Positions 45,242 through 60,835 of a stretch of 64,000 nt of DNA are shown piece by piece. The notes under the pieces were generated by a model. It was not told where the DNA came from, searched no databases, and saw nothing but the letters and a program-made list of their open reading frames with translations. The DNA is taken from IMG/VR virus record IMGVR_UViG_3300032087_004763, positions 78,382 to 142,381 of that record. One strand, given 5' to 3'. Made by a program: the position numbers and the translations under genes. Every line of letters begins with the position of its first letter. The first letter of the stretch is position 1. This DNA is from a virus.

Positions 45242-45317
45242 TGGCCTCGTCGGCAGGATTCGAACCTGCGACCCTCTGCTTAGAAGGCAGATGTTCTATC
45301 CACTGAACTACGACGAG
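45242..45317 (-). tRNA. tRNA-Arg (anticodon UCU), CCA encoded
   Basis: Minus strand: perfect 7-bp acceptor CTCGTCG/CGACGAG, discriminator G, then encoded CCA. D-arm region AGTTCAGTGGATAGAAC, anticodon stem CTGCC/GGCAG (read in loop TTCTAA), T-arm GCAGGTTCGAATCCTGC. Anticodon TCT decodes AGA/AGG, codons frequent in phage genes of this composition. The only tRNA visible in the window. Confidence 0.97.
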
Positions 45318-46064: not shown

Positions 46065-46793
46065 TCAATGTTTTAGAGACATTTCGTAAATGTGATCGTA
46101 TAAGTTGATTTCTGCTTTCCATCCAAAAAGGTTTAATACTGTTGTGTCAGCTTTGTTATCAAGTCGTTCTGTCTCACCACCAACTTCAGGTCTATAGTCG
46201 ATATTAAAATACTCGGCTATATCTGTTAGCTTATTAGTAGTACCAGTTCCTACATCGATAACACCAATGAAGTCGCTATCGATCATAGTTTGAATCGCAC
46301 GTACCACGTCATCGACGTGTATGAAATCACGACTATGGTTTGTATTTAGATACTCCACCTCGTTATTCAGGATCTTTGGTATTAGCATCTCGCCTCTTGC
46401 TTGAGGACCGTATACTGTAGTAAATCTCAGTCCGACTGCATTATCATGCTCTAGTTGCTCCATGCAATATTTGCTCATCGCATAAGGATTCTTCCATGGC
46501 TCATGTGCAGTTGATGAGCTAGCATATATGATTCGAGTATCACTGTAATGTTGAAACAGCCTTTGAGTACCAATGACGTTGTTCTTCCAATATTCAGTAG
46601 GTCGATCAAGGCTATCCCTTACACCGGACATACCTGCCATGTGTACAACTAAATCTATATTATCAGGAAATTCTACTTCTAGTATGTCGTTACCGCTTTT
46701 AATATCAAGCCCGATGACATTATGGTTTTCTGAAAAGTAACGAAACAGGTGACCACCTATAAAGCCATCACTTCCTGTTAACAAGATATTCAT
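46065..46793 (-). CDS. NAD-dependent sugar epimerase/dehydratase
   Basis: 242 residues from ATG 46793 (AGGA 8 nt upstream); a longer frame to 46898 lies inside the previous gene. 'MNILLTGSDGFIGGHLFRYF' holds the GxxGxxG Rossmann motif, 'VVHMAGMSGV' follows, and the catalytic YxxxK is 'YAMSKYCMEQ', with 'SSSTAHE' supplying the Ser/Thr. This is the extended SDR family (UDP-glucose 4-epimerase type). At 242 aa it is shorter than usual (about 310). It may feed sugar nucleotides to the downstream glycan operon. Confidence 0.85.
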   Translation of the reverse strand: MNILLTGSDGFIGGHLFRYFSENHNVIGLDIKSGNDILEVEFPDNIDLVVHMAGMSGVRDSLDRPTEYWKNNVIGTQRLFQHYSDTRIIYASSSTAHEPWKNPYAMSKYCMEQLEHDNAVGLRFTTVYGPQARGEMLIPKILNNEVEYLNTNHSRDFIHVDDVVRAIQTMIDSDFIGVIDVGTGTTNKLTDIAEYFNIDYRPEVGGETERLDNKADTTVLNLFGWKAEINLYDHIYEMSLKH

Positions 46794-47208
46794 TTTTGTA
46801 TTCCTCGCACAATGTTTCTTGAAGCCGATAGGCCTCTTCTTCCCATGGTAATGCCATATACTCATCAACAGTTGAATACAATGATATGTATTCCTCACCT
46901 TTCCATGACTTAGTGAACTTATTTACATCTTTTGTTTCACCACGTGCATACTGTTTGACGTGAACCATCTCGTGTGTGATAGCAGTAATAAAGTCATCAC
47001 CTTTTAGTCTACTATCTATCTCAAGAACAAAGGATCGCTTTGACTCAGCAAGACAGTATCCGTCTGCACGATCCATGTTCTTCTCCAGATAGAGAAGAAT
47101 ATCAAGTGTCTTCATTCGTGGCATCAACTTTTTGATACAAAATTCGATTACCATCTCTGCAGTCGTGCGCTTGAAGTGGCTGCCGCCAATTATCATAATG
47201 TCATTCAT
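46768..47208 (-). CDS. SprT-like zinc metalloprotease, copy 2
   Basis: 146 residues. 'DDFITAITHEMVHVKQYARGE' holds the HExxH zinc motif, followed 40 residues later by 'WEEEAYRLQETLCEEY', where the Glu may be the third ligand. Similar to minimal SprT-like proteins but without a zinc ribbon. It overlaps the upstream protease gene by 4 bp and the epimerase by 26 bp. Function in phage unknown; candidate roles are processing of virion proteins or degradation of host DNA-protein cross-links. Confidence 0.72.
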   Translation of the reverse strand: MNDIMIIGGSHFKRTTAEMVIEFCIKKLMPRMKTLDILLYLEKNMDRADGYCLAESKRSFVLEIDSRLKGDDFITAITHEMVHVKQYARGETKDVNKFTKSWKGEEYISLYSTVDEYMALPWEEEAYRLQETLCEEYKNEYLVNRK

Positions 47209-47696
47209 GCTGCAGCCTCTTTCTCTTTACGCTTCTGCTCGATCATAGGATTCACGAGATCTTGACGGAGATACCGATAGATCGTTCGGAAACATTCACC
47301 ATGACCGCGGTCTTTCTTCTGCTTATTTTTCAGATAAGGTGGGAACCAGTTGACGTAGGTGTACTGAATAAAGTGAGACACCTCGTGGGCCACAAGACAA
47401 AGTAAGATGTCAAGATTATCATTCACCTTGATACTGCCAATCACCGGATCATTGGTGAAACTCTTGTACTCACTCCACCCCGATCTACCGAACTGCCAAC
47501 ACAGTACGTTGATCGCAAGCTTATTATGACCAGCCCAAGAACGGCCGTTACGTCTTTTATAGACGTGCAGGCGGTTGACTGCATTCTTGACTGCAGACTT
47601 AGGAAGGTTCAACTCGTACTTCTTCTTACGAAGATGACGGACACAGATCTTGACCATGTCCTCGACAATCTTTTCTTTATCGCGTGGTATGCTCAT
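47205..47696 (-). CDS. SprT-like zinc metalloprotease, copy 1
   Basis: 163 residues. 'LLCLVAHEVSHFIQYTYVNWFPPY' carries HExxH and 'DRGHGECFRTIYRYLRQDLVN' the third-ligand region (HGxxF), as in SprT/Spartan family proteins. N-terminal 'VYKRRNGRSWAGHNKLAINV' suits the SprT substrate strand. No zinc ribbon. Two different members side by side in a phage are unusual. Its start overlaps the 55-aa gene upstream (TAATG). Confidence 0.75.
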   Translation of the reverse strand: MSIPRDKEKIVEDMVKICVRHLRKKKYELNLPKSAVKNAVNRLHVYKRRNGRSWAGHNKLAINVLCWQFGRSGWSEYKSFTNDPVIGSIKVNDNLDILLCLVAHEVSHFIQYTYVNWFPPYLKNKQKKDRGHGECFRTIYRYLRQDLVNPMIEQKRKEKEAAA

Positions 47697-47956: not shown

Positions 47957-48097
47957 TTACTTACGTTGCTTTTTTACAGAAACTATCGGATTTCCCCATA
48001 ACTCGGCCGGAATATCTTCTCGACAAGGGTAGACATCTGATCGTTTTCCGATCAATGCTTCGTATGCAGCTTGTGCTTTCTTCTGATGTTCTGTCAT
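47957..48097 (-). CDS. Small hypothetical protein (46 aa)
   Basis: Product reads MTEHQKKAQAAYEALIGKRS, DVYPCREDIPAELWGN, PIVSVKKQRK. Begins with an ATGA overlap on the stop of the 200-residue gene upstream, so it ends the long sugar operon. Helical N-terminus; no family recognised. Confidence 0.65.
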   Translation of the reverse strand: MTEHQKKAQAAYEALIGKRSDVYPCREDIPAELWGNPIVSVKKQRK

Positions 48098-48696
48098 TTA
48101 TGAACCTCGACTTTTACATTTCTTGGTTGATCGATCTTTAGATGATTGTGTTTATGGTGTAGGATAAATTCTGTATTCTTAAATTCATCGAAGATACCAC
48201 TCCATATTGGTCTCCAATTATTATTGAGTCGGACGTTAGTGGCTTCATCTCTTGGTGACGGCAGATAAAAATCTGAACACGATCTTAGATTCATATCAAA
48301 GATAGAATCAAATCCCCATAGATGTACGATATCCGGTTTAAATTTAGCGCATGCATAATGTGTCGCCATGTGACCACAATTAAAGTCTGTGTAGTTGTCT
48401 ACATATTTCGGGAGGGTCAAATAGAACTCTTTAACCTGTGTCGACATCTTTACATACCACTCAGGTTGTTTCTCCATCCAGACCTTTGGCCTTGCGCCAA
48501 GGATCCAGTCACCTGGGAGAGTTAGTTCTTCTTTTGTGAGTGCACGCATCATCTTAAAGTCTACCATGACTGTGCCGTATGCATTTTCTACAGGGAATGG
48601 AGGTATGTTACAAGTTAATACAAGGCCCTTCCTTGGCTCCTCATTATAACAGTTAGCATTGTCTCCATTTCCAATAATATGAACCACTCTAGGCAT
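48094..48696 (-). CDS. Rossmann-type protein of the sugar operon, unknown function
   Basis: 200 residues from ATG 48696 (GGAGAAG 4 nt upstream). 'RVVHIIGNGDNANCYNEEPRKGLVLTCNIPPF' and 'DIVHLWGFDSIFD' resemble the MptE-like/DUF115 Rossmann proteins and some sialyltransferase-type folds ('I.GNG.S......VI.CN', 'HLWGFD'). Such proteins act in surface polysaccharide work, but a transferase role is not shown. It ends the sugar operon apart from the 46-aa gene. Confidence 0.45.
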   Translation of the reverse strand: MPRVVHIIGNGDNANCYNEEPRKGLVLTCNIPPFPVENAYGTVMVDFKMMRALTKEELTLPGDWILGARPKVWMEKQPEWYVKMSTQVKEFYLTLPKYVDNYTDFNCGHMATHYACAKFKPDIVHLWGFDSIFDMNLRSCSDFYLPSPRDEATNVRLNNNWRPIWSGIFDEFKNTEFILHHKHNHLKIDQPRNVKVEVHK

Positions 48697-49391
48697 TATC
48701 TTCTCCAATACTCTGAAATCCAATCAACTGGCTTATATGTAGCTAATGGTGTTGTGATCGGTACACTCATTGCTTGTTCAATACTTGGCCGACCATGAAA
48801 ACATATAATAGAAGTTTTCTTGTCAGGCCTGTTAGGATATACTTGATACTTATATGACTTGAGTCTACCTGGATATAAGTGCTGTAATAGATCTCTTCGT
48901 AGAGGCGACATATAGTGATTAAGTAGTTCACCATCACCACGAAAATGCTTTTGATTCTCTTGCATTGACTGACTTAAATTTGACCATATGTCAGTATTCA
49001 TTCTTGAATCAAATGCCATGACGCCTGTTTGTAGCACATTTTTAAGATGAGGTTGATGAGAATTGACTGCTCCAACATCTTCAATACCCATAAACTTACC
49101 GTCATAATTCATTAGCCAGTCTAAGTCTCCGGTGATCAACGTATCAAGATCAAAGTACACAACACGATCACTTAGTCTCCATTTTGAATTGAATAGCTGT
49201 AGTTTATTCCACCATCCTTCGTATCCTTCGTCTAAAATACGAAAATCAACCTTCGGAAGCACATGATCAGTAAAACAAATAAACTCATGGTCAACAGTGG
49301 TATTACGTTCTACCATTGCTTTCAGGTTTAACACATAATCGTCAGAGAATTTATTTCCCCACGACACACATACTACACTTACCTTACTCAT
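48696..49391 (-). CDS. Glycosyltransferase, GT-A type
   Basis: 231 residues. 'RVVYFDLDTLITGDLDWLM' is the DxD-type nucleotide-sugar site, 'WWNKLQLFNSKW' precedes it, and 'LQTGVMAFDSRMNTDIW' the acceptor loop of GT8-like enzymes. 'DGELLNHYM' completes the pattern. ATGA overlap with the next gene. Sugar unknown. Confidence 0.75.
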   Translation of the reverse strand: MSKVSVVCVSWGNKFSDDYVLNLKAMVERNTTVDHEFICFTDHVLPKVDFRILDEGYEGWWNKLQLFNSKWRLSDRVVYFDLDTLITGDLDWLMNYDGKFMGIEDVGAVNSHQPHLKNVLQTGVMAFDSRMNTDIWSNLSQSMQENQKHFRGDGELLNHYMSPLRRDLLQHLYPGRLKSYKYQVYPNRPDKKTSIICFHGRPSIEQAMSVPITTPLATYKPVDWISEYWRR

Positions 49392-50044
49392 AAAATTTCA
49401 TACACCGAATCATAATTATGTTTAGCTATACATCCATGTTCTTTTTGAATCGTAGTAAACTTATCGTCAGCTTCGATTGGCCACGGAAAATACTCTTTAA
49501 TAAAAGGGAATGTTTGGTTATTCATGAATAAATCTACATGACATGGATTGAGTTCTGAGTGAATTAATAATTCATGTGCTGCAGCCGGAGTTATCATGTA
49601 AGCATGCGCTCCTGGCATATACCCATTTCCTTTTGAAAAGAGATTATATATGCCTTCATGCTTTGGAATTCTATATTGACCAAAACTTGGTTTACCAAGA
49701 TTCACAAATTTATGCAGATTGATATCGCTTGGTATTTCCTTTTTAAAGACTGCATCATGTTCTAGTATGAGAAGCCGCTCATTGCTTTCTCGACACTTTT
49801 TCCAAAGCTCTCTATGTGACAAGAAACAACACATTGCTGGTTTAATTCTAGCATACACATTATCGGTAAAGTTTATAGTTGGAAGTCCCTCCTCTCTGAA
49901 GATTTTGACTGGATCGTCTTCAGGTGTAATTGCTTCAAAGAAACTTGGATAATATCCAAATTTACGAGCAGACGCAGCGCATCTCTTTGCAACCTCTACA
50001 GACTTCTTGTTCTTAAACATTGTAATAATATAAGAATTGATCAT
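49388..50044 (-). CDS. Glycosyltransferase family 25-like
   Basis: 218 residues. 'NSYIITMFKNKKSVEVAKRCAAS' is the GT25 start, 'PAMCCFLSHRELWKKC' the conserved SH..LW and 'RLLILEHDAVFKKEI' the ExDA motif of the catalytic site. 'GAHAYMITPAAAHELL' is the C-terminal signature ('YlI.p.gA..LL'). GT25 enzymes (LgtB/LpsA type) transfer galactose onto LPS in bacteria. Two further related GT25-like genes occur at 50.0 and 54.5 kb. Confidence 0.82.
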   Translation of the reverse strand: MINSYIITMFKNKKSVEVAKRCAASARKFGYYPSFFEAITPEDDPVKIFREEGLPTINFTDNVYARIKPAMCCFLSHRELWKKCRESNERLLILEHDAVFKKEIPSDINLHKFVNLGKPSFGQYRIPKHEGIYNLFSKGNGYMPGAHAYMITPAAAHELLIHSELNPCHVDLFMNNQTFPFIKEYFPWPIEADDKFTTIQKEHGCIAKHNYDSVYEIL

Positions 50045-50721
50045 AACGTTGTCGTCGATTCAATACCTTGAACTTTTGTATAATATGGATATACTACTTT
50101 CAATTCATGAGGAAAAAATTGATTACACATGATTGCATCATTTGGCCAAGCGCCTACCTGTTTTAATTTATCTAAAAGCTTCTGTGCAAAATATGGCTTG
50201 ATAATATATGCTGAATTACCAGCTAATCCTTGTGGTAGATCAAGTGCATTCGTAACATATGGTGCGTTTGTTATACCATTAGTAGAAGATGCATGCTGAT
50301 GATAAATTTTTGAGGAATGTGTGCTACCTCTTGGATCATTTAGGCCAAGAACACCGCCTTTCCAATAAAAAGGTTTGAACTTTCTTATGAACACTGCATC
50401 ATGTTCAAGAACCATAATGTCTTCTTGTAGTTCAATACTCTTTTTCCACAGGCGTGCGTGTGAGACCGTGCACGCAAATTTCTTTTCCATACTATTTGTC
50501 TTGTATGGCCTCAAGATCATTCCTGTTTCATGATCAATACCAAACTGATCATTCAAAGGATACGTCCATGACATTCGAGGAAGATCGGTTAAATGCTCTT
50601 TGAGTGTATCGGGTGATGTCTGTTGAAACAACTCAATATCAAGATCTGTAGACTCTATGCAGCGATTAGCGGCTGCAACTGATACAGGATTCTTTTCATC
50701 ATATATTAGAAAACATTTCAT
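50041..50721 (-). CDS. Glycosyltransferase family 25-like
   Basis: 226 residues. 'FACTVSHARLWKKSIELQEDIMVLEHDAVFI' shows the SH..LW and LEHDA signatures, and 'GNSAYIIKPYFAQKLLDKL' the C-terminal block. Its N-terminus 'KCFLIYDEKNPVSVAAANRCIES' is more diverged than that of the 49.4 kb enzyme. The catalytic set appears complete. Overlaps both neighbours by 4 bp. Confidence 0.75.
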   Translation of the reverse strand: MKCFLIYDEKNPVSVAAANRCIESTDLDIELFQQTSPDTLKEHLTDLPRMSWTYPLNDQFGIDHETGMILRPYKTNSMEKKFACTVSHARLWKKSIELQEDIMVLEHDAVFIRKFKPFYWKGGVLGLNDPRGSTHSSKIYHQHASSTNGITNAPYVTNALDLPQGLAGNSAYIIKPYFAQKLLDKLKQVGAWPNDAIMCNQFFPHELKVVYPYYTKVQGIESTTTL

Positions 50722-51107
50722 ATTACGTACGTCGTTACATCAGTTTCTATTTTTTTAACTTCAGGATATGTATCTCTCTTCACGACAATAGAAGAACTAT
50801 CCTTATCAGTTCCGTGAATCTTAGGTACTAACCCCTCTTTCGGCTCTCTTAGATTTACCATTAATTCATATGTTGGTAATTCATTCTGCACAGTCATATA
50901 TATGAATTTATTCTTGGCATGCTTTACTAGCTCTGGTGAATCCTTCTCTGCGGCAAATCTAACGTTACTCCAATCACTCATCTTTGGCCTTTTGAGGTCT
51001 TTTGTTTTACCAAAAATAAATTCTACCTCGCGATGCTTACAAATAAGCGGCACCCAATAATCTCTGAATATATCAGAATCAGTTACGTCAGCAATAAATG
51101 TAATCAT
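50718..51107 (-). CDS. Hypothetical protein of the sugar operon
   Basis: 129 residues: 'MITFIADVTDSDIFRDYWVPLICKH' and 'FIYMTVQNELPTYELMVNLREP'. The start looks like a Rossmann strand and helix, but no motif completes a known family. Might be a short sugar-processing or glycosyltransferase-associated protein. Embedded with ATGA overlaps on both sides. Confidence 0.4.
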   Translation of the reverse strand: MITFIADVTDSDIFRDYWVPLICKHREVEFIFGKTKDLKRPKMSDWSNVRFAAEKDSPELVKHAKNKFIYMTVQNELPTYELMVNLREPKEGLVPKIHGTDKDSSSIVVKRDTYPEVKKIETDVTTYVI

Positions 51108-51844
51108 ACTAACTCCGGCATTTTAAATTTTGATGCATTAATAAAGTGTTGTATCTTACCTCTAGGATGTTCTGGTGGCCATTGCCTAGTTGCAAGACTA
51201 TTCCATGTCCAGTCAAGTTCGGTTACATTGAAAACAGGATTCGATAACTGTAAGTTGAGATACATCTGTTCGGTGTATCGAGTATGCATATAGTAGTGAT
51301 CTACCGAAGTAAAATGTTCTCTTGCCTTGAGTCTGCCTTCCTTACTCCATAGCTGCACCCCGCCATTCATATATCTAAATTTTTCTTTTGGATATAGTGC
51401 AGACTTAGGGAACATCCAATCGTCGCCGAATAGCTTCTTACCATAAGCAATGATACCTCTCTCATGACCTGGTGATTCCATCACTCTTTGCATCCATCCT
51501 GCAGCAGACTTATGTATACCAAGTTCGTGCACCATTGCAATATCACCGATCTCAAAATCAAAAATATTCTCATTAGTTTTAATTAGAATGTCTAGGTCAA
51601 TGGATAGTATATTATCAAACTGATCAAAGAACGGATCATACACAACTTTAAGCGCATCGAGACGTGGATCTAAATGTTTAAAGTACCTATCATGAGTAAG
51701 TAGATATTGAGCATTGCATTTCTTAGCGTACGATTTTGCAGATTTAGATCCTGCCTTTGCCCAATCAGGCATCTCTACGCCACCTAGATGTGCATCGTTC
51801 GCTTCATACGGTATATAGTATTGAAAAATTAAATTATTTGTCAT
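51104..51844 (-). CDS. Glycosyltransferase, GT-A type
   Basis: 246 residues. 'FDNILSIDLDILIKTNENIFDF' holds the D-x-D, preceded by 'KVVYDPFFDQ', and 'YMNGGVQLWSKEGRLKAREHF' the NGG acceptor loop. 'HYYMHTRYTEQMYLN' resembles the region leading to the catalytic end. It fits the GT8-like family with complete motifs. ATGA overlap with the cytidylyltransferase gene. Confidence 0.72.
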   Translation of the reverse strand: MTNNLIFQYYIPYEANDAHLGGVEMPDWAKAGSKSAKSYAKKCNAQYLLTHDRYFKHLDPRLDALKVVYDPFFDQFDNILSIDLDILIKTNENIFDFEIGDIAMVHELGIHKSAAGWMQRVMESPGHERGIIAYGKKLFGDDWMFPKSALYPKEKFRYMNGGVQLWSKEGRLKAREHFTSVDHYYMHTRYTEQMYLNLQLSNPVFNVTELDWTWNSLATRQWPPEHPRGKIQHFINASKFKMPELV

Positions 51845-52278
51845 AAAAAATCATACCCTGTCCATGCTTCTTTCGTGGATCGTCTCTCAATATATTCTTC
51901 TAGTGTCTTTGTAGTTGACTCATCACTCACTCTATCAAAGTATGCAATTTCCTTGCACCACTTTTCTCCGACGACTTTTTTACCTTTCCAATCTGAACCT
52001 ATTACTCTGACATCTGGATTATAACTCTTAATGATGTCAATTAACTCTTCGTCTGAGCTAAAGAACCTTACTTCATCAACTGCTTTTAGATTTGATATGA
52101 TCATTGATCTAACATATGCATTGTTAACCGGCCGATCGTAACCTTTTGCTTGGCTAATTCTTTCGTCAGTGTCAAGTGCAACTAAGAGATAATCACCTAA
52201 AGATTTTGCATAGTTTAAAAGTTCAATATGACCGGTATGTAATACATCGTAGGCACCGTTAGCCATTATATATTTCAT
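51841..52278 (-). CDS. Cytidylyltransferase-like nucleotidyltransferase (TagD/RfaE-C type)
   Basis: 145 residues, near the 130-150 typical of this family. 'NGAYDVLHTGHIELLNYAKSLGDYLLVAL' contains the HxGH nucleotidyltransferase signature. 'VIGSDWKGKKVVGE' and 'DRVSDESTTKTLEEYI' correspond to the conserved middle and the [ST]ST substrate loop. Known reaction: activates glycerol-3-phosphate, heptose-phosphate or related to a nucleotide form. Neighbouring GT9-like genes hint at heptose-type chemistry, though no heptose-1-P kinase is in the window. Confidence 0.85.
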   Translation of the reverse strand: MKYIMANGAYDVLHTGHIELLNYAKSLGDYLLVALDTDERISQAKGYDRPVNNAYVRSMIISNLKAVDEVRFFSSDEELIDIIKSYNPDVRVIGSDWKGKKVVGEKWCKEIAYFDRVSDESTTKTLEEYIERRSTKEAWTGYDFL

Positions 52279-52997
52279 TTAATAACACCTCTTTGCAAAT
52301 TCCTAACATAGTATTCTCGGCCTTTCCATCCGGCAAAGTGAACAAAATTCATATTCGTATAGTCTTCAGTATACGGATAGCAGTCTACCATGTAGTTCCA
52401 TTTAGGAGATAGTGTATACGACATTGTCGGATTCCAAAATCTCCATTCATTCATATACGCTTGATCCGTGTGTATAGGAGGTAACTCTCGTTTCTTACAT
52501 TTATCTCGAACAAAGTTTCGTAGACTCTCACCAGCTGCTTTGTTTACAATTTGTACACCACCGTTGATAAACTTATCGTGGAAAGGAACACTCCAGTTTT
52601 TACCTTTATCTTCGACTCCGCCATGACCAAGAACATTTGGTAAAGGTTCAGCTGATTCTGGAATGAATATATCATTGTCAAGAGATACAATTCGATCATA
52701 CTCAGGTAGACCCATATTTAAATATCTGATGAGAGTAGAACATTTATTTTTTCCACCCTGGCTATAATCGTGATGTAGGTCCTTTGTGTTCTTATTAAAA
52801 AAATGAATGTCAATATCTGTTGGATATTCCGTGATCATCTTATAGTCATATCCATATTTTTCACAATATCGTTTTACAGTTGGGACACACACAGACTCCA
52901 TAGTCTCTGCAGCCTTTGCAGCATACGGTGAGTTTCTAGGATCGTACACATAACCAAATGTGTTACCGACTTTAACTTGTATGATTAGAGTTTTCAT
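52275..52997 (-). CDS. Glycosyltransferase, GT-A type
   Basis: 240 residues. 'YDRIVSLDNDIFIPESA' is a D-x-D-type site, 'DKFINGGVQIVNKAAGES' the NGGV acceptor loop, and 'DQAYMNEWRFW' the next element. N-terminus 'TLIIQVKVGNTFGYVYDP' appears to be the first strand. Likely another GT8-like transferase; donor unknown. Overlaps the GT9-like gene by 26 bp. Confidence 0.72.
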   Translation of the reverse strand: MKTLIIQVKVGNTFGYVYDPRNSPYAAKAAETMESVCVPTVKRYCEKYGYDYKMITEYPTDIDIHFFNKNTKDLHHDYSQGGKNKCSTLIRYLNMGLPEYDRIVSLDNDIFIPESAEPLPNVLGHGGVEDKGKNWSVPFHDKFINGGVQIVNKAAGESLRNFVRDKCKKRELPPIHTDQAYMNEWRFWNPTMSYTLSPKWNYMVDCYPYTEDYTNMNFVHFAGWKGREYYVRNLQRGVIK

Positions 52998-53802
52998 TCA
53001 TTACCTTCATGCATGATTCAAATATCTCGTCAACAGTAATTGAATCATTTGCTTCTTTACAATGTGCACAATCATACATCGATCCGCACGGTGTCATATG
53101 ATGTTTATATGTATGATGTATGTTAGTGTCATATGACATGACATTTGTATCTACTAGTCCACCTTGAATTACAACACATGGTATCTTAAATCCAGCAAAT
53201 ATATGCTGTAACAGTCCATCATATGTTATACCAAACTGAGACTTTTCCATAATCGCTGCAGCGACCCTAACATTTTGAGTTTCAATGTTAACAGAATTTT
53301 TTAGTTCGGGCTCACGGTATTTTTTGTCTGTTGGTTTTAACCTTACACATTCAATATGTTTTGATAGTCTATTTGCCAGCTCTTGATATTTTTTAAACCC
53401 CCAGTTTTTATTACTAGAGAAAAATGTAGATTTATAGTCTGGATTCACTATACAAAAGTTACCTATACCATAGGTAGATATAATATTATCCGCTTCATCT
53501 TGTTCTTTTTGCGTGAGTCTTAATCTAAATGGCGTAGGCTTGAAGTTTCGGAAGATAATCTTTTGACCAAGTATGGTTTTCTCTTTTCTTATGCCATAAT
53601 AATCTACGTGCACATCAGATAAAGCATTTGTATCTCTAGCATTTACGTATAGTGAATCAACCGTCTTTTCACTTGTAATAAACTCAACATTATCAAACAT
53701 AGGTGACCATCCCGATCCATATATCGGAATAATTTTCTTTCCAGTCTTTTTGTGTATTTCCTCGGCCTTGCCTAGAAATATTAAATCATCACCCCAACCC
53801 AT
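52972..53802 (-). CDS. Glycosyltransferase family 9-like
   Basis: 276 residues. 'MGWGDDLIFLGKAEEIHKKTGKKIIPIY' is the GT9 N-terminal loop (G.GD.l...A.....), 'GIGNFCIVNPDYKSTFFSSNKNWGFKKYQELANRLS' the second-domain start, and 'QFGITYDGLLQHIFAGFKIPCVVIQGG' the nucleotide-sugar-binding end. GT9 includes ADP-heptose:LPS heptosyltransferases. Its tail has a CxxC (DCAHCKE). Donor in this phage is uncertain. Confidence 0.72.
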   Translation of the reverse strand: MGWGDDLIFLGKAEEIHKKTGKKIIPIYGSGWSPMFDNVEFITSEKTVDSLYVNARDTNALSDVHVDYYGIRKEKTILGQKIIFRNFKPTPFRLRLTQKEQDEADNIISTYGIGNFCIVNPDYKSTFFSSNKNWGFKKYQELANRLSKHIECVRLKPTDKKYREPELKNSVNIETQNVRVAAAIMEKSQFGITYDGLLQHIFAGFKIPCVVIQGGLVDTNVMSYDTNIHHTYKHHMTPCGSMYDCAHCKEANDSITVDEIFESCMKVMNENSNHTS

Positions 53803-54532
53803 TATATAGATCAGTCCTTTTAAAATATTCTATTTGATCCTTACTCGGATTCTCACAATAATTCATCATCGCACCACGACGAAATAATTCCCTTGCCATA
53901 AATGCAACGTTCCAGCTATCAGGAAATCTCTTGTCATTCTCTCTATTCCGTATGTTTATGTAAACGTGCAGGCTTTCAATTGGCTTTACTAATTTTGCTA
54001 TATGCATCATTCCTGAATCTGCACCTACATGGTATTTTGCTTTCGATAAAATATATGCTGCTTCTCTTACTGTAAATCTCCGATTACCAATGTCTATTAT
54101 ATCATACTTTTGCTCTTTATAAAACCCCTCAATGCGTTTTATTCTATCTTTGTCCCAGCGATCAACTAATCTGTAGAGCTGGCCTGCATCCCATTGAGTT
54201 GTGACAAAGTTTTCTGGTAGATCAATATTGACCTCAGGTATTTTATTTTTAGTTCTAATATCTGGAATTTGAGATGTGAGGTGTATATATTGGGTTACGT
54301 GGGCCAGACCGGGATAATAATAAAATATTTCATCAGGTTTGTGTGTACTGTTAAGAGACACTTCTCCAATATCAATTAGATCATTTGCAAAAGAGGTAAC
54401 TTCAGCATTGCCTTTACTATGTAATGCAACTTTTGTTCCTAGTACTTTACTATACATATGACAGAAAAGAACCATATCAATTGCGTCACCTAATGGTCTA
54501 GGTGCTGGATTAGCTATGATAGCAGTGTTCAT
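53789..54532 (-). CDS. Glycosyltransferase family 9-like (diverged)
   Basis: 247 residues. 'IIANPAPRPLGDAIDMVLFCHMYSKVLG' fits the GT9 N-terminal loop, and 'LSKAKYHVGADSGMMHIAKLVKP' is the characteristic D-S-G-x-x-H block of GT9 second domains. Smaller than bacterial heptosyltransferases (about 330). The C-terminal 'MMNYCENPSKDQIEYFKR' is extra. Overlaps the other GT9-like gene by 14 bp, so the two likely act in sequence. Confidence 0.65.
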   Translation of the reverse strand: MNTAIIANPAPRPLGDAIDMVLFCHMYSKVLGTKVALHSKGNAEVTSFANDLIDIGEVSLNSTHKPDEIFYYYPGLAHVTQYIHLTSQIPDIRTKNKIPEVNIDLPENFVTTQWDAGQLYRLVDRWDKDRIKRIEGFYKEQKYDIIDIGNRRFTVREAAYILSKAKYHVGADSGMMHIAKLVKPIESLHVYINIRNRENDKRFPDSWNVAFMARELFRRGAMMNYCENPSKDQIEYFKRTDLYNGLG

Positions 54533-55215
54533 ATTCCGTATGAAGTGCTTAAGTTTACACTATTAAATTTTACCGGACTTGGACTCACATACTGCATTCG
54601 AACAGTGCTTGAATTAATCATGAAATCTGATTGGTCCATTCCGTGAGTACTGATAGCTGATAAAAGTTTCTTTGCACCTTTTGGTGTGACGGCATATGCT
54701 CCTGTACCAGGTGCCATCTTACTGTTCTTCCAGATATTATCTTTGTGATATAGCAGTGGATAATTTTCAGGAAGATCACATACACCAAAGCTATCAAACT
54801 GATAATTCTTATATTGTTGTAATGCTAGCTTATTTGGTGGTCTAAAAACATATTGTGCATTCAAGATGAGGTAATCATCAAAGTCATAATTGTCCCATCT
54901 ATCTAAACACACTGCATCATGCTCTAAGAATACCATCGGAGTGTTTTTTGTGATTACCTCTCTCCAGAAAGCAATATGATTAATCGCGCAGGCCATCTTT
55001 GTGCAATACTTCTTATAGTCCTGCCGTTTGAAGTCATGTAGTCTACTCTCTTCAATAACTTTATGTTCAAACTCAGCGATCTGTTGCACAGTCTTAGCTG
55101 TCATCCCTTCATTTAGTTTAACATCCCATCCATATTTTTGAAATGATTTAAGAGATTGTCGTGCTTGTTTTTCAGAGTCTTCGTGACCCTTAATATAAGT
55201 GATTTGACCTTTCAC
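54529..55215 (-). CDS. Glycosyltransferase family 25-like
   Basis: 228 residues. 'KMACAINHIAFWREVITKNTPMVFLEHDAVCLD' contains the H..FW and FLEHDA signatures, and 'GTGAYAVTPKGAKKLLSAI' the C-terminal block. N-terminus 'ITYIKGHEDSEKQARQSLKSFQK' is GT25-typical. Third GT25-like enzyme in the operon, sharing the block structure but little overall identity, so duplications are ancient or independent. Confidence 0.8.
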   Translation of the reverse strand: MKGQITYIKGHEDSEKQARQSLKSFQKYGWDVKLNEGMTAKTVQQIAEFEHKVIEESRLHDFKRQDYKKYCTKMACAINHIAFWREVITKNTPMVFLEHDAVCLDRWDNYDFDDYLILNAQYVFRPPNKLALQQYKNYQFDSFGVCDLPENYPLLYHKDNIWKNSKMAPGTGAYAVTPKGAKKLLSAISTHGMDQSDFMINSSTVRMQYVSPSPVKFNSVNLSTSYGI

Positions 55216-55847
55216 ATATTTTCCTTACAATAGATATTATCATGTCCAGACTTGGCTACTCTCCTATAGCCTAGTGATTCTAAGATCTTATGTGCAGCAT
55301 CTGAGTTGTAGATTGGCGGTTGGTATTTAGGTAGATACTCAATCATAATGACAGGCGAGTGTTCAGTTAATGTTTTTTTAGCTCCATCAACAACATAATA
55401 CTCATAGCTTTCTACATCAATCTTAATAAAATTAATTGGCTGATCGAAACTAAAACTATCTAACGGTTTAATATTGATTTCGCGTGTCTTAGCGTTTAAC
55501 TGCCATTTTCTTCGAGGATGTTTTATAAGGGAGGATCCACCAGTTTTTTCTTCCATTACATACATATTTTCTTTTGATTTAACGTTTCCCAGACCACAGT
55601 TATGCACGGTCACGTTTTTTAAATCTTCTGTATTGGCAAGTGTATATTCATAAAATAACGGTTCAAAAGAATGTACTAGTTTAAAGTCATTTGCCATTAA
55701 CCGAGACATTGTTCCTACATGGGCTCCGATGTCTAGTGCTAATCCAAATTGAGATATGTGTTTTTTACTTTCATGATATGCATCATGGTTTGGTATTACG
55801 TTTAAGTCTTGTACGTCACCAGGTGGTTTTTTAAATTTAAAATTCAT
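55212..55847 (-). CDS. FkbM-family SAM methyltransferase
   Basis: 211 residues from ATG 55847, where ATGA overlaps the upstream stop; a longer frame to 55907 is less likely. 'FGLALDIGAHVGTMSRLMAND' is motif I (D.GA..G), 'VHSFEPLFYEYTL' the acidic-loop motif, and 'INFIKIDVESYEYYVVDGAKKTL' the FkbM hallmark (iKiDvEG.E). Known role: O-methylation of sugars and related compounds. In this operon it probably caps or decorates a glycan. Confidence 0.88.
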   Translation of the reverse strand: MNFKFKKPPGDVQDLNVIPNHDAYHESKKHISQFGLALDIGAHVGTMSRLMANDFKLVHSFEPLFYEYTLANTEDLKNVTVHNCGLGNVKSKENMYVMEEKTGGSSLIKHPRRKWQLNAKTREINIKPLDSFSFDQPINFIKIDVESYEYYVVDGAKKTLTEHSPVIMIEYLPKYQPPIYNSDAAHKILESLGYRRVAKSGHDNIYCKENM

Positions 55848-56665
55848 ATTGCAATACCTTTGTAATGACTCATATATTTTTGAAGACGCGAATATTCCCA
55901 TACACAATGCGTTTGTGCAGATGCAAGGTGATGAGTTTCAAGATTGACTTCTTTTTTCAATTTACTATTGACATAATCAAAAGCGTGACAATCGGTCCAG
56001 CCTTCGTAGAGATTATATATTTCACCATCTTCATATAGTTTTCTGTATTCACTCCACCATAAATCGTTATGCTCATGGTGTGTGTCCCAGATAATGAATC
56101 CACTCTCCATGTGTTTATGCGGGTATCTTGATAGGTAGTAATTATGTGCTTTACTTTCTACGAGTGATGGAAAAAAGTCCTCAGGTATCTTTTTATTGAT
56201 ACTGACATCGGCATCCATGGATATTAAGTATCGTTCCTTAACTCTATCAATTGCGTCGAGTAGCGCAAATGGTGGATGGCAAAATCTAACAGCATCAAAC
56301 TCGTAGTCATAATGTTTACGATTAATAATGGTGCTATCGATTTTATAGCTATAATGCGTTTTCTTTTTCTCTATCCATCTATGTTTTGATATAGATTTAA
56401 ACTGTTCTACCTTATCTAAACGATGCGGAACAAACTCTACCTTTGACGTGTTTTCTGGTAGATTATCACCTTCGTAATAGACAAGTAGAGATGCATTTGA
56501 TGGGAGTCTTTCTTCGGCTTGTTGTGCAAGTCTCATTCCAAATGAGATAGTTTCATTGCCGTTCTTTTCCCAATGCCTTCTCGCTTTATCATTCAATGTT
56601 GATAGATCAATATTATCGATCTTTCTAATGACATCCTTAAATGTAGTTACTATCTTAAATTTCAT
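55844..56665 (-). CDS. Glycosyltransferase-like protein
   Basis: 273 residues. 'RYLISMDADVSINKKIPEDFF' carries the DxD (DAD) motif, 'HMESGFIIWDTHHEHND' the acceptor-type loop and 'GWTDCHAFDYVNSKL' the D..af element. Earlier 'LLVYYEGDNLPE' fits the start of a GT-A fold. Motifs resemble those of GT8-like phage proteins in this operon. Overlaps the aminotransferase stop by 11 bp. Confidence 0.65.
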   Translation of the reverse strand: MKFKIVTTFKDVIRKIDNIDLSTLNDKARRHWEKNGNETISFGMRLAQQAEERLPSNASLLVYYEGDNLPENTSKVEFVPHRLDKVEQFKSISKHRWIEKKKTHYSYKIDSTIINRKHYDYEFDAVRFCHPPFALLDAIDRVKERYLISMDADVSINKKIPEDFFPSLVESKAHNYYLSRYPHKHMESGFIIWDTHHEHNDLWWSEYRKLYEDGEIYNLYEGWTDCHAFDYVNSKLKKEVNLETHHLASAQTHCVWEYSRLQKYMSHYKGIAI

Positions 56666-57632
56666 ATAACACTTCGTTGATTATGTTTGCGTTGTTTTTA
56701 ATTTCATCTATGGTCTGACCTGGATTGATATGAACATAGAATACTTCTTCACTCTTTCTTAGTGCATTTTTTCCAGTAGTAGTATGCTTAAATACCGGTT
56801 GATATGACATAGGCTTAAATGAATGTCTTGCTCGAATGCCTTTGCTTTTGAGCATCTTAACAACCATATTTGCATCATGATGTTTCATATCATAAACCCA
56901 GACAACTGCCCTATTATCAGGCATCTGGTTTTTTTCATCGATATAAAAATTATACAGGTCACATATCTGCTGTCTCTTATCTAGATTTTCATCCACATTT
57001 GCAAGGGACTCAAGTACCATTGAAGCCTGAGAATTTGTACAACGATAGTTGAATCCTATCCTTTCATGGTAGTAGTTATGCGTATCGCCAAAACTCATAG
57101 ACCTCATGTCTTTTGCTTTCTTAATTAGGGCTTCGTCATCGGATACTATAATACCACCTTCTTCAGCATGGATTATTTTATTCTGATAGAACGAGAAGCA
57201 ACCAATATCAAATGATCCTATAGGTTTTGCACTAGAGTACGCGCCTTGTGCTTCACAAGCATCTTCGATAACACGTACATCAAATTCTTCAGCAATACTC
57301 ATTACCTCGGCCATATTGACAACTCGGCCATATACATGTGTTACCATCAACACACGGATTTTTGGATCACCTCTAAGATGTTCTCTTACATGTTCTAGAT
57401 TGATAAGAAGATTATCGTCGCAGTCTACAAAGACTGGAGTGAGTCTAGCATAGTAGACAGCCATACCGCTTGCGTACATAGTAAACTCTGGAACTATAAC
57501 TTTACTATCCTTTGGAAGTTCCAATGCTTCTAAAGCTAAATGTAAAGCTGCAGTTCCAGTATTGACTGCGCATGCATGATTTACGCCTACATGATCTGCA
57601 TAGGCTACTTCAAGCGCTTCATATGGTTGCAT
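56655..57632 (-). CDS. DegT/DnrJ/EryC1/StrS-family PLP aminotransferase
   Basis: 325 residues from ATG 57632 (TAATG overlap with the epimerase; a TTG 12 nt upstream is less likely). 'VNTGTAALHLALEAL' binds the cofactor phosphate, 'RVIEDACEAQGAYS' has the PLP-ring Asp, and 'IGCFSFYQNKIIHAEEGGII' holds the Schiff-base Lys. 'GFNYRCTNSQASM' is the conserved late block. Known role: makes amino sugars from keto sugar nucleotides. It would use the product of the adjacent dehydratase. Slightly shorter than cellular homologues (about 370). Confidence 0.92.
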   Translation of the reverse strand: MQPYEALEVAYADHVGVNHACAVNTGTAALHLALEALELPKDSKVIVPEFTMYASGMAVYYARLTPVFVDCDDNLLINLEHVREHLRGDPKIRVLMVTHVYGRVVNMAEVMSIAEEFDVRVIEDACEAQGAYSSAKPIGSFDIGCFSFYQNKIIHAEEGGIIVSDDEALIKKAKDMRSMSFGDTHNYYHERIGFNYRCTNSQASMVLESLANVDENLDKRQQICDLYNFYIDEKNQMPDNRAVVWVYDMKHHDANMVVKMLKSKGIRARHSFKPMSYQPVFKHTTTGKNALRKSEEVFYVHINPGQTIDEIKNNANIINEVLYEI

Positions 57633-58588
57633 TACCAGTCCCAACGATTACCGTTATCTCTGAAATAATTAACTGTTCTTATGAGAGCTTCTTCTAATGA
57701 GACTTCTGGTCTACTCTCGATCACTTTATATAATTTAGTATTATCTGATTGTAAATGCCAGATCTCCCACGGTCTTACCTTCTCTTGGTCTACTTCAATA
57801 TCAATAGATGGCCATCCCATAATTTTACCAATCATTTCTGCAAGGTCATATATCTTAACTCCGTCTTCACTTCCCATATTGTAGACCTCACCAAACTGAC
57901 CGTTCTCAAGTAGATCAACCGCCATTCGTACAGCGTCTTTTGCATATTGGAAGTCACGGAATGAATTGTTACCGATTCGAAGAGTTCTCGATTTATGTAG
58001 CTGTGAGATAATCTCTGGTATAACGTACTCATGAGTCTCTCTTTCACCGACACAATTAAACTGGCGCATTGCGATTGCAGGTGTATTTGCCTCACGCCAT
58101 CTTACTTGAACTAATCCATCTGCAGCTAATTTAGATACACCGTAGGTCGAATGAGGTTCTACAGGATCAGACTCTTTGATCTTTCCGTCTAGATTGCCAT
58201 AGATCTCTGCAGAGGATACCTGAAGTAATCCTTTGATATCAGCTTGTTCACAAGCCGTAATTACCTTGAGTACGGCTGTAGCATTGATATCAAAGAAGTG
58301 AGCAGGTCTTTGAAAACATTCTGGGATATAAGGTTCTGCAGCATAATTGAAGACATACTCAATATTATGCTTTGTAAAGATTTTTGCCAGGTCGCTAGCC
58401 TCATCCCTGATATCATGCCAAACAAATGTAGCATCTGGATGAATATGTTTCTTTAGACCTGATATTAGATTATCGAGTACGAGTACCTGACAGTTTTTTG
58501 TTTCAATGAGGTAGTCAACAAGATGCGAACCTAAAAATCCAGCACCACCAATCACACAAACATTTTTATTACTAACATCTCTATTCAT
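57632..58588 (-). CDS. NAD-dependent sugar-nucleotide epimerase/dehydratase
   Basis: 318 residues from ATG 58588, which follows the small gene's stop by 2 nt; the ATG at 58606 lies within that gene. 'NVCVIGGAGFLGSHLVDYL' is the cofactor motif, 'VSSAEIYGN' supplies the Ser/Thr and 'STYGVSKLAADGLV' the YxxxK. 'QFNCVGERETHEYVIPEII' and 'RDFQYAKDAVRMAV' are typical of extended SDR epimerases/dehydratases. With the DegT aminotransferase it forms the classic pair for amino-deoxy-sugar synthesis. First gene of the sugar operon by translation order. Confidence 0.9.
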   Translation of the reverse strand: MNRDVSNKNVCVIGGAGFLGSHLVDYLIETKNCQVLVLDNLISGLKKHIHPDATFVWHDIRDEASDLAKIFTKHNIEYVFNYAAEPYIPECFQRPAHFFDINATAVLKVITACEQADIKGLLQVSSAEIYGNLDGKIKESDPVEPHSTYGVSKLAADGLVQVRWREANTPAIAMRQFNCVGERETHEYVIPEIISQLHKSRTLRIGNNSFRDFQYAKDAVRMAVDLLENGQFGEVYNMGSEDGVKIYDLAEMIGKIMGWPSIDIEVDQEKVRPWEIWHLQSDNTKLYKVIESRPEVSLEEALIRTVNYFRDNGNRWDW

Positions 58589-58590
58589 AA

Positions 58591-58761
58591 TTATCGCTTT
58601 TTCCATTCAACACACGTATATGTATATTTTCCGTCGAGCTCATCAGTCATAGCCTTTCCGACATCTCGACACTCAGCCCAGCTTGTAAACCATCCTTGGT
58701 CATAAGCTATAACCTCAGGATTTTGTCCTGAGGTCATTATCATAACTAAAAGTACCCACAT
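58591..58761 (-). CDS. Small secreted or membrane-anchored protein (56 aa)
   Basis: Read on the minus strand: MWVLLVMIMTSGQNPEVIAY, then DQGWFTSWAECRDVGKAMTD, and YTYTCVEWKKR. A short hydrophobic N-terminus followed by 'W.ECR.....C' with two cysteines suggests an exported disulphide protein. Such small 'F....C......C' proteins are common beside holin-type genes in marine phages. Stop is 2 nt before the epimerase ATG. An 8-bp hairpin (58713-58733) lies within its early codons. Confidence 0.65.
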   Translation of the reverse strand: MWVLLVMIMTSGQNPEVIAYDQGWFTSWAECRDVGKAMTDELDGKYTYTCVEWKKR

Positions 58762-58764
58762 AAT

Positions 58765-59073
58765 CTATTTCTTTTTCAGTGCATCCGCTCCAAAGAAAGC
58801 CGAAACTAAAACTGCAATTGATGCAAAATAAGTTGGAGCGATATCAGCAATCAGTTCAGCTGCTGTATCGAGCCCAAACAAAGATGTCATAAATATCCCG
58901 AACGGATACAATAACAAACCAAAAAGTGCGAACCAAGCCATCTTGCGGATCGCATCACGCTGAGCATCAGCGTCTTCCATTTCCTTTCTCATATTCCAAA
59001 GGTACATCTCATGTTCTTCATTACTAACTACCCCATCACCATTCGTATCTGCTGGGTGTTGACCTTCTGCCAT
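58765..59073 (-). CDS. Membrane protein with EF-hand-like calcium loop
   Basis: 102 residues. 'DTNGDGVVSNEE' is a perfect 12-residue EF-hand loop (D1, N3, D5, S9, E12) close to the N-terminus. Two hydrophobic spans follow, near 'AWFALFGLLLYPFGIFMTSLF' and 'APTYFASIAVLVSAFFGADAL', separated by a short loop, ending in KKK. Topology and size fit a holin-like protein, but no lysis gene is recognised adjacent. Calcium-dependent gating is inference only. Confidence 0.6.
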   Translation of the reverse strand: MAEGQHPADTNGDGVVSNEEHEMYLWNMRKEMEDADAQRDAIRKMAWFALFGLLLYPFGIFMTSLFGLDTAAELIADIAPTYFASIAVLVSAFFGADALKKK

Positions 59074-59102: not shown

Positions 59103-59492
59103 TTATGCGTTATCGTCAATCCATGAAGTAGAACTTTCATCCCATATCCACATTTCATTACCACTTGGATTAGCGGGAGGTTGTGACGGTGGTTCCCATA
59201 TACATGTTGTTTCATTTAATGTCCAAGAATTATACACCTGTGGTGAAATAAATGCATCTCTTGATGAATCGTATATTAAGCCGATACCCGCATAATTTTT
59301 ACGTGGATTTGTAATTCCTTGTAGTGTTCCGGTTTTATAAGTTTGTTTCCAAGTGCCGGCTTCCATATTGTTTAAGTATGCAGCACCGATAGATTCTTGC
59401 ACAATACCATCGCTGTCTTTAGCAATACCATCTTCAAGAGTAACTACCTTCTCAACTACATTATTTGATCCTAGTTTTGCAAAATGTATCAT
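59103..59492 (-). CDS. Putative virion/fibre-associated protein
   Basis: 129 residues. 'MIHFAKLGSNNVVEKVVTLEDG' followed by 'AAYLNNMEAGTWKQTYKTG', 'RKNYAGIGLIYDSSRDAFI' and 'PPANPSGNEMWIWDESSTSW' is a pattern common in marine phages ('FAKL...N.VE.V......R.N.A..G..YD...DAF....P..SW.L......W..P'). Usually found next to tail/fibre genes. Role unknown. Its start overlaps the glycine-rich gene's stop by 4 bp. Confidence 0.65.
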   Translation of the reverse strand: MIHFAKLGSNNVVEKVVTLEDGIAKDSDGIVQESIGAAYLNNMEAGTWKQTYKTGTLQGITNPRKNYAGIGLIYDSSRDAFISPQVYNSWTLNETTCIWEPPSQPPANPSGNEMWIWDESSTSWIDDNA

Positions 59493-60481
59493 GAGAATGT
59501 TATACTCCCGTTCCCAGTAAACGTGTATACTGTATCTGTACCCACAGTAGCTGTAGACGGTGATCCTGTAGTACCTGATACCGTATAGGAATTAGGTACT
59601 CTTATAATTGCTATACCATCTGAACCAGCACCACCTAGACCAGTACCACCATAGGCCCCACCTCCACCGCCACTTCCGTATCCGGTTGCATCAGCTCCAT
59701 TATTACCAGTTCCGACATTACCATCACCGCCACCGCCAGAGCCTCCTGATCCAACCGTGATGGAGCTACTACCGGCCCCACCTCCACCGCCACCAGCGTA
59801 TGTTACACTCGAACCAGTGATATCGGATGCCTTGCCGTCACCTCCATCTCCGGCTGAAGAAAAACCCACTGCATCTGCACCTGCGCTGCCGGCCCCACCG
59901 CCGCCACCGCCGCCATCATTACTATCTCCGACATTACAACCAGTGCCGCCATCATTACCATATCCGTAGGTTCCTGATGCTCCTGCTTGAGATGGCTGAT
60001 TTCCAGTGCCCCCCGGCTGCGGGTTGACTCTATCAGAACCTCCGCCGCCTGATCCGCCATCTGCGCCATTCGCAATAGAGCTTGAACCGTGAGATCCACC
60101 ACCACCACCGCCTTTTGCGGTTAGGCTGAATGCAGTAGTATCAGAACCATTGCTCCCCTTGACGCTACTAGATGCAGCTCCTGCACCGCCAGAACCTACT
60201 ACAATATTGTAAGTACCAGCCGCGGGCTGTAGTGTAGGATTATCAATCATACCGCCGGCTCCTCCACCTCCACCGGTGAAACACCCGCCGCCACCACCGC
60301 CGGCAACAAGTAGTACTCTAACTGCAGGAGGTAGTGGATCATTATCTCCTGACCAACCATCACCATCTTCTTGTCGGTCATGAACGAAGTTCAGAGAATA
60401 TATTCCACCGTGAGTATTATCAGATGAAGCTGTCTTTGGGTTCTTTTTACCTATAAGACTGCCGTTATAACGATTGGCCAT
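59489..60481 (-). CDS. Glycine-rich adhesin-like protein (polyglycine-II type)
   Basis: 330 residues. Residues about 55-280 are made of GGGGGG clusters alternating with short variable loops (for example 'VLLVAGGGGGGCFTGGGGGAGG' and 'TYAGGGGGGAGSS'). The short C-terminal domain ends 'TVYTFTGNGSITFS'. This matches the glycine-rich motif design of receptor-binding adhesins of T4-like phages such as gp38 of Salmonella phage S16, where glycine motifs form a polyglycine-II core and loops bind receptor. N-terminal 'NRYNGSLIGKKNP' is conserved in marine fibres. Confidence 0.68.
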   Translation of the reverse strand: MANRYNGSLIGKKNPKTASSDNTHGGIYSLNFVHDRQEDGDGWSGDNDPLPPAVRVLLVAGGGGGGCFTGGGGGAGGMIDNPTLQPAAGTYNIVVGSGGAGAASSSVKGSNGSDTTAFSLTAKGGGGGGSHGSSSIANGADGGSGGGGSDRVNPQPGGTGNQPSQAGASGTYGYGNDGGTGCNVGDSNDGGGGGGGAGSAGADAVGFSSAGDGGDGKASDITGSSVTYAGGGGGGAGSSSITVGSGGSGGGGDGNVGTGNNGADATGYGSGGGGGAYGGTGLGGAGSDGIAIIRVPNSYTVSGTTGSPSTATVGTDTVYTFTGNGSITFS

Positions 60482-60835
60482 TTATGATATCTCTTGATAC
60501 GAGCAGACAGCCTCAAGGTCTGATGCTGCACTTGCAGTCAACCTTAATGCGTCGCCTTCTTCTAGAAAGATTGATTTATGCAGCACGTCGATCGTAGTAT
60601 CAGCGGGGACTGTAATTGTCTTTGCTATATGATATGCGGTTGAGCTTCTATATACGTCGACGTTAACCGTAGCATCATTAGTACCATCAACATTTGATAT
60701 GTACAAAGCAGTGACTTTGAATATTTTATTGCTTGATGCTGAATTAGTGACAATGGCTGTAGCTGATGTTCCTATCGCCTGAACTGCTAATTTCCCTACA
60801 GCTGTAGAGACATTAAATATATTTGGGTTTGCCAT
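60482..60835 (-). CDS. Small virion structural protein
   Basis: 117 residues. Beta-rich 'TSATAIVTNSASSNKIFKVTALYISNVDGTNDATVNVDVYR' with 'DTTIDVLHKSIFLEEGDALRL' matches a frequent phage structural jelly-roll family ('...A.y.sN.d....v.v.......L...e.ifL.eGD.l....'). Low charge and no Cys until the C-terminus. Coupled to the following glycine-rich protein by adjacency. Confidence 0.65.
   Translation of the reverse strand: MANPNIFNVSTAVGKLAVQAIGTSATAIVTNSASSNKIFKVTALYISNVDGTNDATVNVDVYRSSTAYHIAKTITVPADTTIDVLHKSIFLEEGDALRLTASAASDLEAVCSYQEIS

Follow-up and report, generated by a model that had tools for sequence, protein, structure and literature searches.

What does a T4-like phage build with fifteen consecutive sugar-handling genes, and on what does it place the product? 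The genes occupy the minus strand at 48094-58606 of the window, by which we mean the whole 64 kb stretch analysed here, the right-hand part of a 142,381-base IMG/VR virus record. The carrier has a gp32-type single-stranded DNA-binding protein, baseplate wedge genes, fibre genes and a terminase, a T4-like genome as in the marine phages known for lipopolysaccharide (LPS)-type glycan clusters; the nearest named genome by terminase is Phage C48C1 (71.8% identity), followed by cyanophage S-RIM2 (48%). We tentatively propose that the 15 genes constitute a single operon-like unit with which the phage makes an oligosaccharide, host lipooligosaccharide (LOS) being the likeliest acceptor. Judged from its sequence, the locus is real and functional-looking and belongs to a kind already known; its arrangement is new and informative. 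Its layout would resemble that of a bacterial LOS serotype locus, with fixed flanks, a downstream block of four transferases and an exchangeable upstream cassette.

Every neighbouring pair among the 15 open reading frames (ORFs) overlaps, by 4 to 64 bases, and a 4-base overlap is the commonest junction. An earlier note on this DNA had described fourteen genes in unbroken overlap; the overlap stands, and the count becomes fifteen, which is also what the note's own list adds up to. The operon end it gave, 58588, corresponds to the second ATG in g15, the epimerase gene, whose first ATG lies at 58606, and the unit reaches further upstream still, where a 56-residue ORF and the small gene c1 join on. 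No membrane segment is evident in any of the 15 proteins, the highest KD19 value (1.56) falling in the N-terminal Rossmann region of g15; c1 reaches 1.89. The active-site motifs searched for in the operon proteins are intact, and several glycosyltransferases are clustered with sugar-nucleotide enzymes, as in the LPS-type clusters of marine T4-like phages.

The four downstream genes, g4-g3-X/g2-g1, are conserved as a block. Eight IMG/VR loci were found with g11 and g9 as queries, and the g1 and g4 profiles gave 80 loci each among the matches listed, behind which stand 552 (g1 profile) and 585 (g4 profile) confirmed relatives; gene strings were compared for 166 loci. In the g1- and g4-selected sets, which overlap by contig, hold near-identical loci and are each conditioned on one block gene, all four genes stand in order in 73 and 61, respectively, of the 80 listed loci, and among the g1-selected loci g3 is found in 77, X in 76 and g4 in 74. 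The distances of the four genes correlate across 83 non-redundant loci (Mantel r 0.64-0.80, a level reached by 0 of 500 permutations). The third slot is filled by a GT8-like gene, X, in most relatives and by g2 in the window, X and g2 showing 25-28% identity by BLAST. C48C1 and one further locus (L019) are without the two GT25 block genes and retain a g2-like gene and g1. Conserved gene order, the loss of which the earlier note had named as counting against its proposal, is kept by four genes in most of the 166 loci and given up by the exchangeable genes upstream.

Close relatives make this exchange plain. Two loci resemble the window at its flanks (c1 88%, g1 84% and mp2 82% in L018; c1 87%, g1 70% and mp2 80% in L020), and neither has any of the 11 cassette genes, g5-g15, in common with the window at an identity of at least 35%. 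Three more distant loci, L098, L099 and L100 (g1 52% in L098 and 58% in L099), have nine genes each in common with it and keep g15, g14 and g13 together in the order 15.14.13; the order 6.5.4.3 is seen in several relatives. Homologues of the flanking genes c1 and mp1 occur in 51 and 58 related loci, respectively. On these comparisons, the cassettes are exchanged, as expected for serotype-like switching, and exchange between close relatives suggests selection for a changing sugar, as in bacterial serotype loci. Gene content that varies between related phages is likewise a property of the LPS-type clusters of marine T4-like phages. Cassettes that differ this strongly would also be expected if the locus were plastic filler, its genes coming and going with no constant role, for instance as a way to maintain genome size for headful packaging, and Sullivan et al. 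raise that option for cyanophage LPS clusters in the available text of PMC3037559. We consider filler very improbable, because frames and motifs are intact and four genes keep their order and co-inheritance across divergent loci. That the block does so in considerably more than a hundred viral loci speaks for at least part of the locus being functional, and the block itself is a small, defined enzyme set.

What the unit could make follows the earlier suggestion of an amino-sugar-containing oligosaccharide, possibly methylated, which is supported by the families of the genes, by their undamaged motifs and by the order they keep. The predicted dehydratase/epimerase, DegT aminotransferase, FkbM methyltransferase and cytidylyltransferase-like gene each score above their Pfam cut-offs, as do the three GT25 transferases it had named (Pfam E 1e-13, 1e-11 and 4e-9), which carry an LEHD motif; g3, g4 and g11 reach 51.8, 45.5 and 36.9 bits with PF01755, for which the gathering score is 24, and the g4 profile matches a solved GT25 structure, 8xlz (5e-7). 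With its GxxGFxG and YxxxK motifs, g15 scores 151 bits with TIGR01181 and 147 bits with LegB, and g14 scores 201 bits with LegC and 173 bits with PseC, all below the curated cut-offs; the pair may reasonably be taken to yield a 4-amino-4,6-dideoxy sugar. The heptose-1-phosphate adenylyltransferase model TIGR02199 gives g7 104 bits and the glycerol-3-phosphate cytidylyltransferase model 70 bits, both below curated cut-offs; the predicted identity leans to the former, and a heptose-type activity would suit the GT9-like genes. The two GT9 transferases of the earlier note are weak assignments, since g10 falls just under the Pfam cut-off, g9 has no match to PF01075 or significant profile match, and neither reaches the GT9 gathering score; homologues of g9 in IMG/VR are 46-61% identical to it. 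Its four GT-A-like transferases can be kept as putative, on the basis of PHROG 1962 for g2, a sub-threshold Pfam GT8 match for g8 and DxD motifs in g6 and g13. The aspartates concerned are invariant among homologues (D83/D85 in 11 homologues of g6; D151/D153 in four of g13), and neither protein has a Pfam match. Profiles of g6, g9, g10 and g13 gave no usable match in the PDB, and g5 gave no family match among Pfam or PHROGs profiles.

An AlphaFold model of the last block protein, g1, built from 40 sequences has a pLDDT of 92.9, an earlier 6-sequence model having been poorer. Compared with the PDB, the model singles out GT29 sialyltransferases by probability and TM (0.43-0.45), at E-values of 0.075 or worse that are not significant, and the g1 profile has no significant match there. 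Among the model's BFVD matches are viral proteins of the DUF115 and MptE-like kinds, and PF01973 is weakly matched by 8 of 43 g1 homologues. We place g1 near the DUF115/MptE-GT29 group and claim no sialyltransferase activity for it.

Table 1. Genes of the glycan locus and its flanks, with positions in the window and the basis of each assignment.
Feature	Position	Strand	Basis
g15, NAD-dependent sugar-nucleotide dehydratase/epimerase (dTDP-glucose dehydratase/LegB-like)	57632..58606	-	Pfam Epimerase 2.6e-48
g14, DegT/DnrJ aminotransferase, LegC/PseC-like	56655..57644	-	Pfam 2.9e-67
g13, putative GT-A transferase	55844..56665	-	DxD only
g12, FkbM-type methyltransferase	55212..55907	-	Pfam PF05050 1.5e-14
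g11, GT25 transferase	54529..55215	-	Pfam PF01755 4.4e-9
g10, GT9-like transferase	53789..54532	-	PF01075 21.9 bits, cut-off 22
g9, distant GT9-like transferase	52972..53802	-	tblastn 4e-12 to CcrColossus 'putative family 9 glycosyl transferase'
g8, GT8-like transferase	52275..52997	-	PF01501 4.4e-5, 23.6 bits, cut-off 24.3
g7, sugar-phosphate nucleotidyltransferase (HldE C-domain/TagD superfamily)	51841..52278	-	PF01467 1.4e-13; phrog_7878 2.3e-43
g6, putative GT-A transferase	51104..51844	-	invariant DxD
g5, 129-aa protein, function unassigned	50718..51107	-	usually between g6 and g4
g4, GT25 transferase, block gene 1	50041..50721	-	PF01755 1.1e-11
g3, GT25 transferase, block gene 2	49388..50044	-	PF01755 1.3e-13
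g2, GT-A transferase, block third slot	48696..49391	-	phrog_1962 glycosyltransferase 4.3e-21
g1, DUF115/MptE-like, sialyltransferase-fold-like protein, block gene 4	48094..48723	-	
56-aa ORF bridging c1 and g15	58591..58761	-	sequence, translation
c1, small membrane-type protein, upstream flank	58765..59073	-	weak EF-hand match at N-terminus; hydrophobic segment
mp2, HExxH protein, downstream flank	47205..47696	-	homologues in 9 loci, conserved in close relatives
mp1, HExxH putative metallopeptidase, downstream flank	46768..47208	-	DUF6782 2.3e-5, just below cut-off
ep2, second nucleotide-sugar epimerase-like gene, outside operon	46065..46898	-	Pfam Epimerase 3.2e-26; phrog_540 1.7e-44
tRNA-Arg	45242-45317		

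Where would the sugars go? The polyprenyl-phosphate initiating transferase (PF02397) and the flippase (PF01943) are found in none of eight contigs, the carrier and seven relatives, with positive profile controls, which agrees with the earlier note; the polymerase Wzy was not searched for. The carrier is in this respect unlike a Wzx/Wzy-dependent O-antigen cluster, which has its initiating transferase and flippase. GT25, GT8, GT9, HldE-like nucleotidyltransferases and sialyltransferase-fold-like proteins are families of LOS and LPS core synthesis, a pathway that runs without a dedicated initiating transferase, flippase or polymerase; these are equally dispensable when sugars are added stepwise to lipid A-core or to protein. 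Because the operon's families match those of core synthesis and the initiating-transferase and flippase families are absent, we favour host LOS.

We propose that g15 and g14 would convert a nucleotide sugar to the 4-amino-4,6-dideoxy sugar, that g7 would activate a second sugar (a heptose- or glycerol-type phosphate), and that g12 would provide a methylation step. About ten soluble transferases (GT25, GT9-like, GT8-like and others) would add sugars singly in the cytoplasm. The likeliest acceptor would be host lipid A-core at the inner face of the inner membrane, from where the host's own exporters would carry the product outward. Infected cells with a surface altered in this way would then adsorb fewer phages, released progeny included. 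We infer the chemistry, the order of addition, the acceptor and the benefit alike. Host LOS is a tentative first choice among the acceptors; virion protein is a close second though rather unlikely in itself, the phage's DNA improbable and a mere filler locus far more so, what is left of the probability falling to other explanations.

Several observations weigh against host LOS. A block that stays constant despite presumably differing hosts also fits an acceptor owned by the phage. Moreover, g1 is nearly absent from cellular genomes, and genes borrowed for host LPS editing should have a larger number of relatives in cells. When g1 patterns were run against 84,980 species genomes of bacteria and archaea, only five loci were confirmed, four of which carry the block and gp32-like genes and look like phage contigs in bins, although such searches miss distant relatives, so that 'phage-specific' covers this g1 subfamily only. 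Promoter scans gave no clear promoter class, and no gene names the acceptor. The four binned contigs (L175, L176, L177 and L179) are filed as Rhodobacteraceae, Opitutia, Bacteroidetes and Sphingobacteriales; since they appear to be T4-like phage contigs, with a gp32-like gene and the block, this taxonomy is unusable as host evidence. In a contig filed as Flavobacteriales, a further g1 homologue (L178:733-1362) sits close to one end; the rest of that contig's genes do not look phage-like, and the case could be either a real integration or a chimera. In the 'phages' set of 50,697 records, g1 matches two records, g9 matches only Caulobacter phages (~23%), and tblastn at 1e-5 finds nothing for g4 or g11.

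A phage-owned acceptor could be a virion protein, whether capsid, tail fibre or adhesin; an unchanging phage protein would then receive an invariant stem made by the block, and a tip that varies would come from the cassette. We regard this as rather unlikely, though the g1 family looks phage-borne, the block is inherited as a unit, and g1 lies near the DUF115/MptE-like superfamily, which includes flagellin protein glycosyltransferases. Directly upstream of the operon stands a Gly-rich, adhesin-like cassette (59103-60835) comprising a phrog_7759-like gene, a Gly-rich domain and a 117-aa protein, with a same-strand copy of TATAAATA, the late-promoter sequence, at 61078; mycobacteriophage virion glycosylation is cited in the available text of PMC12619734. 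Against a virion acceptor, the adhesin c3 has no homologue among the related loci searched, and a collagen-like tail protein that is one candidate acceptor (L014:7487-8725, adjoining the portal gene, with 59 uninterrupted Gly-X-Y triplets) has a relative in one of eight compared genomes (C48C1, G001-G006 and G009), namely G002. Furthermore, TATAAATA lies within 120-150 bases upstream of none of the 15 window genes, while in most relatives it precedes roughly half of the tested structural genes.

Next to the structural module, at G000:C1:62602-64285, stands a trio similar to the adhesin-like cassette by its start residues, which may be a duplicate of it. A 2-oxoglutarate-Fe(II) oxygenase (phrog_61; window 41410-41979) lies beside gp32 and was not found in the compared relatives. 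Glycosylation of collagen by GT25 enzymes, this oxygenase and the collagen-like tail protein was an idea drawn by analogy with a mimivirus enzyme; we lowered it, the collagen relative being present in 1/8 and the oxygenase in 0/8 genomes.

Transcription timing does not point to an acceptor either. The nearest same-strand TATAAATA sites upstream of the operon are the one at 61078 and another at 63591, and scans for sigma-70 promoters returned no more sites than in shuffles. Early or middle expression, considered from the absence of TATAAATA, was dropped after relatives were scanned: the sequence occurs upstream of c1 in 30 of 48 relatives, most of the sites lying inside conserved codons of an upstream gene.

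The phage's own DNA is the other candidate, with sugars extended on 5-hydroxymethylcytosine as in T4-type phages. Outside the window the carrier encodes a dCMP hydroxymethylase (L012:19307-19984; G000:C1:39307-39984) that resembles T4 gp42 over its full length (1.4e-70 to 1b49), its motif RSNDVVFGYKNDYAWQ aligned to T4's; the DNA of this marine phage may therefore contain 5-hydroxymethylcytosine. Pyle and colleagues reportedly found in 2024 that virus-encoded transferases put several different glycans on this base. That T4-like phages glycosylate it is described in the available text of PMC6024577. The presence of a gp42-like gene makes sugar-modified DNA a serious rival that was absent from the earlier note, yet on balance we judge it improbable. 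Relatives of gp42 occur in G002, G003, G009, G010 and G019; in G001, G005 and G006, which bear the block, no hydroxymethylase was found at the usual site or elsewhere, although these contigs may be incomplete, and the neighbours on both sides of the site are intact. The site is occupied by a QueE-like gene in G001 and by an epimerase and a UDP-glucose dehydrogenase-like gene in G005 and G006. Searches for Tet/JBP gave no match, but the control was silent too, so that a second route to hydroxymethylation is not fully excluded; a C5-methylase match occurs in G002 only. Several genes neighbouring gp42 recur in the gp42-bearing relatives, which thus have some neighbouring genes of their own in common.

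Those neighbours (L012:14929-18759) include a class II aldolase-like gene, a 'threonine dehydratase' (PHROG 7093), phrog_13881 (function unassigned) and a UDG-like protein, and may form a base hypermodification set. The QueE-like radical SAM gene of G001 (L197:16301-17290) suggests alternative base modifications at one site in the lineage. Another radical SAM gene (phrog_21308) lies at 15773-16828 of the window and has 33-44% relatives in G002, G003 and G009. A role for the operon in modifying hydroxymethylated DNA was prompted by the gp42 match and lowered, as the block also occurs without gp42.

We put forward, with more reserve than the LOS proposal, a broader picture in which an abundant, mostly uncultivated T4-like lineage possesses a phage-specific serotype locus. 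It would pair a constant four-transferase stem builder, including the g1-type enzyme, with freely exchanged cassettes, each genotype displaying a different glycan on the virion or on the infected host.

Among known systems, T4-type glycosylation of 5-hydroxymethylcytosine resembles this one in that the carrier contig has a dCMP hydroxymethylase; here, however, there are many more transferases and the block is not tied to the hydroxymethylase. Bacterial LOS and LPS-core loci, from what is known of their families, combine GT25, GT8, GT9 and sialyltransferases and work by stepwise addition without an initiating transferase or flippase. The present locus differs from them in being phage-borne, in having an operon where neither lipid A nor Kdo genes were recognised, and in its g1, which is almost absent from cellular genomes. 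Glycan clusters were recognised in marine phages well over ten years ago, with the question of function left open and 'stuffer DNA' mentioned (PMC3037559). Earlier papers describe LPS-type clusters in marine T4-like phages and share the surface hypothesis, unproven there, in the accessible portions of PMC3037559, PMC2984593, PMC7824862 and PMC7029224; a constant four-gene block with exchange of cassettes between flanks was not found in those portions. The host recognition cluster of pelagimyophages (PMC7029224, in part) is also hypervariable, with several transferases, GT8 prominent among them, rfaE-type enzymes and a surface-change hypothesis; an invariant four-gene transferase block is not part of its account there, and it is set apart by description only. 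The cyanomyovirus LPS-type clusters of P-SSM2, S-SSM7 and S-SM2 are likewise T4-like and bring sugar-nucleotide enzymes together with several transferase families, that of P-SSM2 comprising 15 genes, among them nucleotidyltransferases of the HIGH superfamily and members of several GT families (PMC7824862, in part). Like our locus they are polymorphic between related phages and lie near tRNA genes (PMC3037559, in part); the cyanophage clusters sit near hli03 or phoH, according to the same accessible text, whereas that of the window is located upstream of gp32, in a phage whose lineage is close to C48C1.

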